This document shows positions 1 through 3,979 of a stretch of 55,258 nt of DNA, piece by piece (the stretch's first letter is position 1; each line of letters begins with the position of its first letter). Origin of the DNA: Candidatus Omnitrophota bacterium (lineage in GTDB: Bacteria > Omnitrophota > Gorgyraeia > Zapsychrales > Zapsychraceae); NCBI GenBank assembly GCA_016214285.1, contig JACROV010000041.1, positions 1 through 55,258 on the forward strand, written 5' to 3'. The translations under genes and the position numbers were made by a program. Below the pieces are notes generated by a model. The model saw only the letters and a list, made by a program, of their open reading frames with translations, was not told where the DNA came from and searched no databases.

Positions 1-71
1 AATTGAATGTCTTTAATGTACCAAGGATCTTGAATATTAAGAGCAAGTTCAAATAACGGTTGGGTAAACAT
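1..71 (-). CDS. ISL3-family transposase, N-terminal 23 codons (partial)
   Basis: The frame starts at ATG (71-69), preceded by a strong GGAGG Shine-Dalgarno, and runs off the window edge. The visible peptide begins MFTQPLFELALNIQDPWYI. The pattern 'LxLxIxxPWYI/V' a few residues after the start is typical of ISL3 transposases, which continue into a zinc finger and a DDE-type catalytic domain not visible here. Only 23 residues can be read, so the family call rests on this short N-terminal pattern and on the IS-like position inside another gene. Confidence 0.6.
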   Translation of the reverse strand, partial: MFTQPLFELALNIQDPWYIKDIQ

Positions 72-118
72 TGGCTTCCTCCTGGTTAAGGTTTTTCCAG
101 GATTATAGCAGATTACCC
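1..118 (-). mobile_element. End of an ISL3-type insertion sequence
   Basis: The first ~118 bases look like the transposase-proximal end of an IS element whose body lies outside the window. On the minus strand a short leader beginning near GGGTAATCTG carries a perfect TATAAT (102-107) and a GGAGG, then the transposase ATG at 71-69. The element starts exactly where the DUF2779 reading frame is cut short, and the GGGTAA provides that gene's stop. ISL3 elements usually have GG-beginning inverted ends and 8-bp target duplications, but the other end is not visible, so the boundary is an inference good to within a few bases. Confidence 0.6.
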
Positions 119-1144
119 ATTCAAACTTTCAAAGAGGCTATTTTTAACTATGTATAATGAATATTGAAAAGGGATAGCTTCAAACGGCCTTGAATTATCG
201 TAGGCCGGTATCGCGGGGTTTATCGTCTCGAAATCAAGGAAATAAAAAGGATATTCCAATGTATCGAGAAAATCCTTTATTCCTTTTTTGTCGATGTGCG
301 GTGTACCGTTTTTATGGCATATAACCTGAATGTTTTGTTTATCGCTTAGATTGACGTCTGCCTTTATATCGGTAAGACGTAACACACCGCGCTCCAATAA
401 TTCGTAGGCTTTCTTTGTCCCGGAATATAAACAAAAAATATCGTCTTTAGGCGGCAAAAAATCCCAGCATATATACTCAAGCGGACAAGGGTGCGGATTG
501 TAGCAATGCGGGCCGATTTTTACGCGCGGCACATCCTCTTTCCGTATCGTTTCGAACATGTCAGCCACATTTGTCTCAATTTCAGGCATGAGGTCATCGC
601 ATTGTTTCGTAACATCTTCCGTCGCGAACAATTTTTTAGGTTCTATTTCGCCCTTGCGCACGTATTGATTATTGATATACATGAGATAGCATTTGCGGAT
701 CTTTAAGCCCGCGCCTTCGTATACATATTTTTGAAAGGCGACATCGCTGTAATGCTCTTCTTTTACCCCGCTTGAACTCTTTACTTCGATAAGATCCCAA
801 GCGTCCTTCGCAACAGGATTAAGGATATCTGCTAACGCATAGGCCTGCTTATAAACAAAACCCGCTTCGAATAACGGCTTGCGAAACTTGGCGGCCTCTA
901 AAGACTTTTCTGCCTGCTTATCCGGCGCGGGATCTCTTTGAAGTGTTATGCCTCCCGGGAAAAGCGTCTGTGCCAGTTCTCCGACAACTTGACCCTGATC
1001 CATTATGGCCTGTGCCGCGGCATCGACTTCCGAGAAATCCTCCTTGCGGTTATATTCGTACCATAGAAGCTTCAGGCACTGCAAGCCGCTCATGTATTTG
1101 CTTTTAGACAGCAATGGAAGAGTTCTATTTTTCATCTTTGCCAT
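113..1144 (-). pseudogene. DUF2779 protein (Cas4/RecB-like nuclease plus DEDD exonuclease), 3' end cut off by an IS
   Basis: The protein is 343 aa, while DUF2779 proteins usually run to roughly 500-600 aa. The first half looks like a PD-(D/E)xK nuclease: Asp near residue 106, the WDLIEVK strand at 116-122, and a following helix with QKY. Cysteines at 23, 214, 220 and 226 (CYNPHPC, then ICW) resemble the Fe-S cysteines of Cas4/AddB-like enzymes. The DEDD exonuclease fold then begins with FLDFET (302-307), but the frame ends at residue 343, so the later acidic motifs are gone. The loss coincides with the ISL3 element. It is the last gene of a four-gene operon and overlaps the GIY-YIG gene by 13 bases. 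An ATG at 1135 would give a classic ATGA overlap and may be the true start. Confidence 0.75.
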
Positions 1145-1761
1145 ACAATGTTCCGGAATGCCAAATCTTCGGCCCTAACTTCTTTGCCATTCAGTCCTTG
1201 GATAAGCCAAAGTCCACTTTCCCGAATCCGCATCTTCGGTGAATGATTCCCCAGCCAACGATCTGATGGGCTACAATCGTGACAATGATTAACCGTCGCA
1301 ATTATGCGCTTTTCAAGGTCAAGGCGATGTCGCTTGCTATTCAGCGGTAATACGCAAAATGTAAACATTTTGCGAATGATACGAGACACTTCCCGTTCAG
1401 TCAATGAAAGCCGGTTGAAATCAATTCTGCCAGCGATCTGTTGTCGTTTTTGTTTGGTTGTCAAATCCATCTCCCACTGATCGAGAAAAGGATCGTTTCT
1501 ACTTTTCAATAATGCCCGGCCAATATTTTTCCGAAAAATGCTTCGATCCTTGTTCTCCGTAAGAAAGTGTTCCTCCAGCCTTTGCCTCAAATTGCCTTGG
1601 CCAGTATGCGTCCCCACACGGACAATTCGATCACCATTATGCGCACGCTCACCTTTTTCAAAAAGGATATAAATTCCATTCAAAGGAATGCTGATCTCTT
1701 TAAATGGAAAGCCATATCGCCCCAAGCCATTAAAAAGATGATGTAATATTTCACACGTCAT
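1132..1761 (-). CDS. GIY-YIG-like nuclease domain protein
   Basis: A roughly 209-aa protein. NGIYILFEKGE at about residues 28-38 is the GIY strand, and RIVRVGTH at about 45-52 takes the place of the YIG strand, followed by an Arg-rich helix (LRQRLEEHF) and RSIFRKNIGRALL. The C-terminal WLGNHS and IRESGLW patterns are also seen in a widespread family of hypothetical GIY-YIG proteins. Such folds cut DNA, but cleavage here is inferred. I chose the ATG at 1761 rather than the upstream GTG (1770): it overlaps the stop of the DUF6884-like gene as ATGA and has AAAGG eight bases upstream. Confidence 0.6.
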   Translation of the reverse strand: MTCEILHHLFNGLGRYGFPFKEISIPLNGIYILFEKGERAHNGDRIVRVGTHTGQGNLRQRLEEHFLTENKDRSIFRKNIGRALLKSRNDPFLDQWEMDLTTKQKRQQIAGRIDFNRLSLTEREVSRIIRKMFTFCVLPLNSKRHRLDLEKRIIATVNHCHDCSPSDRWLGNHSPKMRIRESGLWLIQGLNGKEVRAEDLAFRNIVWQR

Positions 1762-2171
1762 TTGGGACACCTTTGTTTAAGCCATGCCAATTGTTCCCCG
1801 ATTCTCAACCCGTCCATTGGTATCTTATAATGGCAAATGGCACCGACTAAATGCCTTCGGTATTTCTCCCCGGCTATGATGACAAATTTATCCTTATTCA
1901 AATGTGTCTTCTGGTCTAGCACTTTTAAGATCCCGGCAGCCCATTCTTGAATTTCTTTATCGCCTTTGGTATTTAGGGTTTCCTGATAGGGACCAATCTG
2001 AATCTCAGGATCAACCAATCCATGTTTGGCTGATAAAATAAAAATTTTGTCAGGATTAAGAGATTGTGCATAACGCCATCCATAATGGAACCAAGTGCTG
2101 TCATATAAATCTTTGGCCTTGCACTTGAACGACTTCTTTTTTCCAACGCAGGACATCAAAACAATTACCAT
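1758..2171 (-). CDS. DUF6884-like small protein
   Basis: A 137-aa protein opening with MSCVGKKK, then AKDLYDSTWF (about 19-28), FILSAKHGL (about 44-52), and IGPYQETL (about 58-65). This order (SC-KK, DLY-S-F, hydrophobic strand-SAKHGL, PY-x-x-x-L) matches the DUF6884 family found in phages and mobile regions. Its biochemical function is not established; the fold is reminiscent of nucleotide or base-binding proteins, but that is inference. The start is well defined: AAGGAGGT lies six bases upstream and overlaps the end of the preceding gene (stop at 2176). It sits second in the four-gene cassette. Confidence 0.6.
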   Translation of the reverse strand: MVIVLMSCVGKKKSFKCKAKDLYDSTWFHYGWRYAQSLNPDKIFILSAKHGLVDPEIQIGPYQETLNTKGDKEIQEWAAGILKVLDQKTHLNKDKFVIIAGEKYRRHLVGAICHYKIPMDGLRIGEQLAWLKQRCPK

Positions 2172-2175
2172 AAGT

Positions 2176-2910
2176 TTACCTCCTTTTTAGCGCCTGCCAT
2201 TGAGCTTTAACTTCGTCGATGCTGGGCAGGCCGCTGTAGTTTTGCCACGGTTTCGGAAGAAAATCTTTATATGCCTTGTTCTCTTTTTGCAAGAACGGAT
2301 ACAAATCCGGAATAGGATAGATACCGCCTTTTAGTTTCTTCCCATCACTGGCGGCAAAAACAAAAGGGGTCATCTGCCTAACGGCAGATAAGAGATGCCG
2401 CGGATGCGATGGTACCCGAAACAGGATCCATTTATTTAATAGTCCACATTTATCAACGGCAGCGGCTAAGGAAAGAAAATATCCTCTAGGATTGACCAAG
2501 GCAAATACTTGCGTAAAACCAATCTTCTCAACCCTGCGGATTCCTTTTACCAGTGACTCTGTCAACGTTTCTAAATATTCGCAGCTTCCGGCTGCCGTGG
2601 GCCTAAACCACCGCCAATTGGGTGCGCCCCAGTCTTTACCCGTGGGATTCTTGACACGATCCATTTCTGTTTCAAAAACAATAGCGCCTTTAGATCCTGT
2701 TGGCTCAGTTTCTAATGTGGAGCTGTCCACTGCCGCAAACGCCACCATTTCTTTGATCCTTAAGTCGCGAAGGCAAGTATCGGCCTCTTTCCATGTATTC
2801 CAACCCTTTTGAGTGTAGACCTCTGCGCGGAAATAATTACCTATACAGGCGGCGGCGTTACAGGGAAGAATTACCAATAATTGTGTGTTTTCTAAACTTT
2901 TCAGTTGCAT
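2176..2910 (-). CDS. Unknown 244-aa protein, first gene of the nuclease cassette
   Basis: I do not recognise this family. The protein is soluble-looking, with no signal peptide or membrane segment. The N-terminus has a hydrophobic strand ending in a small-residue loop (LLVILPCNAAACIGNYF, about 11-27). The middle carries FETEMDRVKNPTG and WGAPNWRWFRP (about 79-107), then a strand VFALVNPRGYF (about 139-149). The C-terminal half has VPSHPRHLL and GGIYPIPDLYPF. The alternation of strands and helices suggests an alpha/beta enzyme fold. Its stop is four bases before the next start and the final codons serve as that gene's Shine-Dalgarno, so the genes are co-translated. It begins 49 bases after queA and may be transcribed from it. 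Confidence 0.6.
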   Translation of the reverse strand: MQLKSLENTQLLVILPCNAAACIGNYFRAEVYTQKGWNTWKEADTCLRDLRIKEMVAFAAVDSSTLETEPTGSKGAIVFETEMDRVKNPTGKDWGAPNWRWFRPTAAGSCEYLETLTESLVKGIRRVEKIGFTQVFALVNPRGYFLSLAAAVDKCGLLNKWILFRVPSHPRHLLSAVRQMTPFVFAASDGKKLKGGIYPIPDLYPFLQKENKAYKDFLPKPWQNYSGLPSIDEVKAQWQALKRR

Positions 2911-2959
2911 TTATATCCATTTACCTCGTCATTCATATAGAGCACGAAATACGATTCAA

Positions 2960-3979
2960 TTAAATAATAATCATCGCATCGCCGTAACTGTAGAACCGGT
3001 ACTTTTCCTTGATCGCCTGCGTGTAGGCCTCTTTCATTAATTTTGTCCCGCCGAAGGCGTAGACCAGCATTAAAAGTGTGCTACGCGGTAAATGAAAATT
3101 CGTGATCAGGGCATCCACCGCGCGAAAGGTGTGGCCGGGATAAATAAAAATATCCGTTTCACCGGACAGCCGGGACGGGTCCTTGGCCAATGTTTCCAGA
3201 ACACGGCAGGACGTTGTGCCCACGGCGGCGATCTTGCTTCCCCTCGTTTTTGCCTGCCGGATCGCATTAAAACTTTTTTGCGTCAATGAGTATTCTTCCG
3301 TGTGCATTTGGTGCCGCGTGATATCTTCCGTTTCCACCATGCGAAATGTGGCCAGATTGACGTGCAGCGTGACGGTTTCGATCCCGTGCCCCTTCTTGCG
3401 TAAGGCATTTAATAACGCCGGGGTAAAATGCAAACCTGCCGTGGGCGAGGCCACGGAACCGGGCTTGCGGGCGTACACGGTCTGGTAATATTTATGGTCC
3501 AGCGGTTCATCGGGGCGTTTGATGTACGGCGGCAACGGCATGTGGCCGTGTTTTTTTAACTGCGCGGCCACATCTTTGCGGTTAAAGCGCACGATGCGTT
3601 TATGGATGTCGGTCAACTCCGCGGTCAGGCTGCCGCCGTTGAATTGTATCTTTTCATTCAATTTCAGCCGGTTGAGCGGCCGGATGAGCGTTTCATAAAA
3701 ACGTCCATCCCCATGGGCAAGTTTTTTAAGCAAAAAAACCTCGACCTTGCCCGGCGTCTTTTCGCGGCGCCCCAAAAGCCGCGCGGGAATGACCTTGCTG
3801 TCGTTAAGGACAACGCAGGAACCGGGCGGCAGGTATTTTTCCATATTGGCGAATATGTCGTGGGAGACCGCCTGTTTTTGACGGTCGATGACCATCAGCC
3901 GCGCCTGGTCACGTTTTTCCAAAGGATACCGGGCGATTAATTCCTGAGGCAGATCAAAATCGAATTTCGAGACTTTCAT
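2960..3979 (-). CDS. queA: S-adenosylmethionine:tRNA ribosyltransferase-isomerase QueA
   Basis: QueA transfers and rearranges the ribosyl part of SAM onto preQ1 in tRNA to give epoxyqueuosine. The 339-aa length is normal for the family. Diagnostic stretches are the N-terminal FDLPQELIARYPL, the central SPTAGLHFT (around 177-186), HVNLATFR, and the C-terminal FHLPRSTLLMLVYAFGG. The start overlaps the stop of the spoIID-like gene by four bases (ATGA), so translation is coupled. The other queuosine genes (tgt, queG) are not in this window. The downstream nuclease cassette starts 49 bases away in the same direction. Confidence 0.95.
   Translation of the reverse strand: MKVSKFDFDLPQELIARYPLEKRDQARLMVIDRQKQAVSHDIFANMEKYLPPGSCVVLNDSKVIPARLLGRREKTPGKVEVFLLKKLAHGDGRFYETLIRPLNRLKLNEKIQFNGGSLTAELTDIHKRIVRFNRKDVAAQLKKHGHMPLPPYIKRPDEPLDHKYYQTVYARKPGSVASPTAGLHFTPALLNALRKKGHGIETVTLHVNLATFRMVETEDITRHQMHTEEYSLTQKSFNAIRQAKTRGSKIAAVGTTSCRVLETLAKDPSRLSGETDIFIYPGHTFRAVDALITNFHLPRSTLLMLVYAFGGTKLMKEAYTQAIKEKYRFYSYGDAMIII

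Follow-up and report, generated by a model that had tools for sequence, protein, structure and literature searches.

What kind of unit is formed by four closely packed genes, several of them of nuclease families, that stand beside the housekeeping gene queA in a Candidatus Omnitrophota bacterium, and do the four belong together as one system? They lie at the beginning of the window, by which we mean the whole 55,258-nucleotide stretch that was analysed, contig C32 of a genome assembly of 1.82 Mb and 88% completeness. The original prediction had described a compact minus-strand cassette, and an ORF check bears out all four genes in position, order, strand and tight packing (Table 1). The ATGA overlaps and shared Shine–Dalgarno sites that were also claimed are present in part. 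There are two ATGA overlaps, one between the GIY-YIG start codon at 1761 and the DUF6884 stop, the other between the start region of the DUF2779 gene and the GIY-YIG stop, but a strong Shine–Dalgarno sequence, AAAAGGAGG, serves the DUF6884 gene only; it is located within the 3' end of the 244-aa gene, whose end is separated from the DUF6884 ATG by 4 nt. The 244-aa, GIY-YIG and DUF2779 genes look translationally coupled. The first three ORFs (244-aa, DUF6884 and GIY-YIG) are intact.

Table 1. Features of the cassette and its borders in the window (positions in nucleotides of C32)
Feature	Position	Strand	Basis and remarks
End of ISL3-like insertion sequence, start of transposase ORF MFTQPLFELALNIQDPW...	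1..138	-	Same direction as the operon
8-bp target-site duplication TAAAAATA	139..146	-	Read from both junctions; second copy at G000:C90:138-145
5' part of DUF2779 gene	139..1144	- (ORF as called 113-1144)	PF11074, weak Cas4 matches
GIY-YIG-like nuclease, PDC-M57B	1132..1761	-	PADLOC; weak Pfam
DUF6884 protein, PDC-M57A, 137 aa	1758..2171	-	PF21818 and PADLOC
244-aa orphan protein, constant first cassette gene	2176..2910	-	ORF; 0 family matches; homologues in G050, G062, L014, L016
Left junction of inserted cassette with queA–tgt spacer	2943..2944		Right junction near G000:C90:665
queA, host gene flanking the insertion, outside the cassette	2960..3979	-	85% identical to G110 queA

The fourth gene had been taken for a PD-(D/E)xK nuclease joined to a DEDD exonuclease, and both regions are recognisable, but the gene is not whole. 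An insertion sequence lies inside it, from window position 138 outward; the '343-aa' ORF takes its terminal nine or so residues from the transposon, and the PF11074 match of the window gene (E=3.5e-12) spans 35 of the 126 profile positions only. A search of the genome located the remaining positions, 27-126, on contig C90, where a transposase tail is followed by TAAAAATA and then by the remainder of the DUF2779 gene (G000:C90:138-636). Because this remainder lies beyond the insertion sequence, the DEDD domain is split and the DUF2779 domain is not intact. The 8-bp duplication, an imperfect terminal inverted repeat common to the IS end of the window and C90:112-137, and the transposase ends fit an element of the ISL3 type, a family name that we assign presumptively from these ends. 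The same IS end has eight copies across the genome, most of them where contigs end, and this accounts for the break of the assembly at C32; the join C32–IS–C90 is one that we infer. The insertion looks recent, since the other ORFs are intact and both DUF2779 halves are otherwise open, having diverged from their homologue on contig L014 (79% and 82% amino acid identity for the two parts) under strong purifying selection (dN 0.11-0.15 for both outer genes; dN/dS about 0.07 for the 244-aa gene; dS saturated throughout). What is left in the window encodes a Cas4-like PD-(D/E)XK region (ALADIL, EVKSS, QKYVY, N- and C-terminal Cys) and the start of the DEDD domain; a PADLOC Cas4 model matches residues 21-227 at 2e-9, and the D, ExK and QxxxY motifs can be read. 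DUF2779 has been placed, with a DUF83 domain, in a presumed 3'-5' exonuclease clade (PMC3985635). It occurs in 18 of the 237 genomes of the phylum. Neither cas1/cas2 nor CRISPR lies beside the cassette, the neighbours being queA, tgt, trmD and rplS.

The genes that follow the DUF2779 remainder on C90 are tgt, trmD and rplS, which places the cassette between queA and tgt. In G110, the closest sister genome and of the same genus, this site is empty (TTGAATCGTATTTCGT then AGATACGAGATACGGACACAATATG): only a short spacer, which corresponds to the two outer flanks of the cassette, separates queA from tgt there, and the insert measures about 3.3 kb without the insertion sequence. Most other family members examined likewise carry tgt directly after queA. 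At G159 a gene for a PAS-domain protein stands between the two (L051:115-1464), so the spot accepts other cargo. The GC content of the cassette is 43.6%, against 51.8 ± 1.8% for the rest (2.8-kb windows; minimum 46.9%). Judging from composition and from the empty site, the cassette is accessory and was acquired by horizontal transfer. An accessory unit with several nuclease families is what had been predicted, and its insertion can now be seen; the picture of a pocket next to an IS and beside queA agrees with the foreign GC, the empty site and queA on one side, but the IS lies inside the DUF2779 gene and tgt closes the other side. A functional tie to queA and tgt (7-deazaguanine; DpdC has a DUF6884 domain) was considered and rejected, as no gene separates queA from tgt in G110 and the remaining 244-aa loci are in other places.

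The view that no described system has this gene set had to be given up for the two central genes. The DUF6884 protein (PF21818, E=2.1e-42) is matched by PDC-M57A (PDLC04712) at E=1.5e-50 over residues 3-135 of 137, and the protein of the adjacent gene, which overlaps by ATGA, by PDC-M57B (PDLC04713) at E=4.8e-87. By these matches the DUF6884 plus GIY-YIG core is already catalogued in PADLOC as the candidate defence pair PDC-M57; a literature search found no paper naming it. The GIY-YIG family assignment takes its firm identity from PADLOC instead of Pfam, where matches are weak (0.02-0.14) and below the cut-off; conserved G, R, H and E columns are seen in the alignment. In the Pfam description, DUF6884 has a YaaA-like fold and the motifs CxxxK and LSAxxG, and its proposed mode of action is base flipping (PMC11701544). 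Both motifs are present in the aligned window protein, and the family profile matches the YaaA structure 5caj at E=0.008. Elsewhere, a DUF6884 gene lies beside a GIY-YIG homologue on a Deinococcus plasmid. G200 carries a PDC-M57B-like GIY-YIG gene without a DUF6884 neighbour in an apparent defence cluster with a restriction-type helicase (L012:914-11879), and a match to the GIY-YIG protein in G003 was set aside as a false positive, sitting in a PilB-type ATPase gene run.

The outer genes behave differently from the central pair. In all four testable loci, that is, those in which the contig continues (the window, L006 of G050, L007 of G062, and L014), the 244-aa gene lies 0.2-2 kb upstream of a DUF2779 gene, while for any one place a DUF2779 gene would be expected within 3 kb with a probability of about 2.5e-4, an estimate (about 21 genes in 237 genomes) that ignores shared ancestry. 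The middle of the window locus is DUF6884 plus GIY-YIG, and that of L007 a divergent DUF6884-like gene with a PDC-M57B gene 37% identical to the window's; G062, which belongs to another family of the phylum, thereby holds all four families in the same order, and the proposed check of co-occurrence has a positive answer. Another of the middles in the four loci encodes a 216-aa protein whose CDAVL...IEVEG pattern looks PD-(D/E)XK-like on visual inspection; a relative of this protein adjoins AbiE and DUF2779 in L034. L014 carries a 245-aa protein of no recognised family (gene GC 31%), and its DNA is 75-77% identical to that of the window over both outer genes and unrelated between them. The DUF2779 tree groups the window with L014 in a supported clade, apart from a second clade that contains L006, L007 and L034, so that the same middle is found in both clades and different middles within each, a pattern that we read as exchange of the middle between loci; repeated independent assembly of the middles is the alternative. 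On these comparisons the outer pair is constant and the middle exchangeable, and the four genes do not make up a single fixed set; it is this chassis of 244-aa orphan and DUF2779 with its exchangeable middle, seen in four loci, that is new here. A bolder version, for which the odds appear somewhat short of even, is that a modular defence family so far undescribed is built on the 244-aa and DUF2779 proteins as its fixed chassis, with an effector slot (the PDC-M57 pair, the PD-(D/E)XK-like protein or the 245-aa protein) that is swapped as a unit between loci, PDC-M57 being one interchangeable cartridge.

The L014 contig is filed under the Gammaproteobacteria MAG RIFCSPHIGHO2_02_FULL_42_13. A cross-phylum transfer on the strength of this record was rejected, as the flanking ROK-type gene (L014:6971-7228) shares 86% identity with G013, a genome of the window's phylum, and 100% over 33 aa with a contig end of G124; the contig is probably mis-binned.

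The 244-aa protein was rightly called unrecognised, with no match at E<=1 in Pfam, PADLOC, PHROG or NCBIfam, and by these searches it is a new orphan family. Five loci are available, from three of the 237 phylum genomes and two further contigs; the latter come from a scan of contigs of 84,980 species with two peptide patterns, which may miss distant relatives. An AF2 model (pLDDT 65, pTM 0.72) has an alpha/beta core with residues 63-118 at low confidence. Of the comparison with known folds that had been suggested, the DUF6884 family profile gave the YaaA match, and the 244-aa model gave no fold match at E<=0.001; hhalign, run from a very shallow profile to see whether the 244-aa protein is a divergent member of DUF6884/YaaA, returned a probability of 0.1. 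A nucleic-acid link of this protein is not borne out, no relation to nucleic-acid enzymes being detected in these comparisons. In G050 the gene is split by an IS21-type element with two genes resembling istA and istB (L006:8484-11790), a second transposon insertion in this rare family, and in G062 it is disrupted; its loss thus recurs.

Relatives of the cassette lie in defence islands, which answers a check that had been proposed, but the window cassette itself does not, its immediate surroundings being housekeeping genes. In L016 the order is PDC-S64, PD-Lambda-3_B (7e-147), a GajB-like helicase, a TPR protein and then the 244-aa gene, and L034 contains AbiEi/AbiEii. Other DUF2779 genes of the phylum are found near WYL regulators, GIY-YIG, GmrSD_N and HSDR_N, those on plasmids near PD-(D/E)XK and PLD nucleases, ATPases, helicases, WYL and DUF6602. 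WYL-domain regulators recur in L018, L020, L022, L023, L028 and L029, and near DUF2779 on Aliarcobacter and Rhodoferax plasmids too. G131 has a different, Pfam-recognised GIY-YIG gene directly downstream of DUF2779 (L019:5374-5805).

Taken from gene families and neighbourhoods, the best explanation is a modular nuclease cassette directed against phages or mobile DNA, to which we give a probability of roughly 55%. Within it, base flipping by DUF6884, of the YaaA/DpdC-like base-binding family, would single out an abnormal or modified base in the DNA of an invader, and the GIY-YIG protein would make its cut at that base. The ends would be degraded by DUF2779, predicted to combine a Cas4-like PD-(D/E)XK nuclease with a DEDD 3'-5' exonuclease, and the 244-aa protein, the constant partner of DUF2779, would act as adaptor or controller. 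This division of labour, which we infer, is perhaps half as likely as the assignment to defence; DUF6884 need not be the sensor, given its presence in 97 phage records and in modification contexts such as dpd. With its exonuclease half broken, the copy in the source genome could now carry out sensing and cutting at most.

Much of the same evidence can be turned towards other roles. The domain set would also suit excision repair, with abasic or ribo-base lesions read by DUF6884, incision by GIY-YIG and end processing by DUF2779, protecting host DNA instead of attacking invaders. In Bacillus subtilis, the DUF6884 protein YfjM is reported as one of the proteins that interact with abasic and RNA-base lesions, and its relation to YaaA suggests a link to oxidative stress (PMC11701544). 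A repair or replication-stress module is nonetheless unlikely, since sporadic occurrence (3/237), horizontal insertion, exchangeable nucleases and defence-island neighbours are better accommodated by defence. Slightly less credible still is that the genes serve plasmid or phage maintenance, a part which DUF6884 and GIY-YIG may play on plasmids of haloarchaea and Deinococcus, or counter-defence, and ride on the chromosome as passengers; DUF6884 is present in 100 plasmid as well as 97 phage records, and GIY-YIG homologues occur on seven large plasmids. The cassette, however, has no integrase or replication gene, GIY-YIG homologues are absent from phage records and 244-aa homologues from phage and plasmid records alike, and scans of viral contigs with the 244-aa, DUF6884 and GIY-YIG proteins found no relative.

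The split DUF2779 gene, together with the damaged 244-aa genes of G050 and G062, raises the further prospect that the insertion sequence has silenced the cassette in this organism, leaving a decaying remnant with no present function, whatever its earlier role. Three intact ORFs, DUF2779 halves that are otherwise open and the signs of purifying selection against L014 speak for a recent insertion and make such a remnant improbable, though a little less so than repair.

If the defence reading is true, the candidate pair PDC-M57 gains two fixed partners, a new protein family is defined by the 244-aa protein, and the locus acquires a testable logic, in which nuclease cartridges are swapped within a frame made of a new orphan protein and a Cas4-like/DEDD nuclease. 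The setting would also let DUF6884, a proposed base-flipping domain, be tried as a sensor of modified DNA.

Among known systems, Dpd comes to mind because DUF6884 is the domain named for DpdC (PMC11888242). The window protein belongs to the same domain family, and the tgt and queA neighbours are there by chance; PADLOC DpdC models reach only E=0.0035-0.017 on the cassette, which contains none of dpdA, dpdB or dpdD-K, whereas a Dpd system would have DpdA/DpdB in one locus with DpdC. This tgt is the housekeeping one (91% to that of G110), and neither tgt nor queA is close to the other 244-aa loci. YaaA (PF03883) is related to DUF6884 through the profile match to 5caj, with fold and cleft in common, but DUF6884 has half the length. 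The likeness to UU173/DUF2779 (PF11074) consists in the PF11074 and Cas4-like regions, both of which are matched by the full-length relative in L006, whereas the gene split by the insertion sequence here scores 29.7 against the NCBIfam UU173 cut-off of 225. As for PDC-M57, both of its components are matched nearly full length and side by side; the difference is that the pair here is enclosed by two genes without a match to any M57 model, those of the 244-aa orphan and DUF2779, and that the same enclosure carries other genes at other loci.
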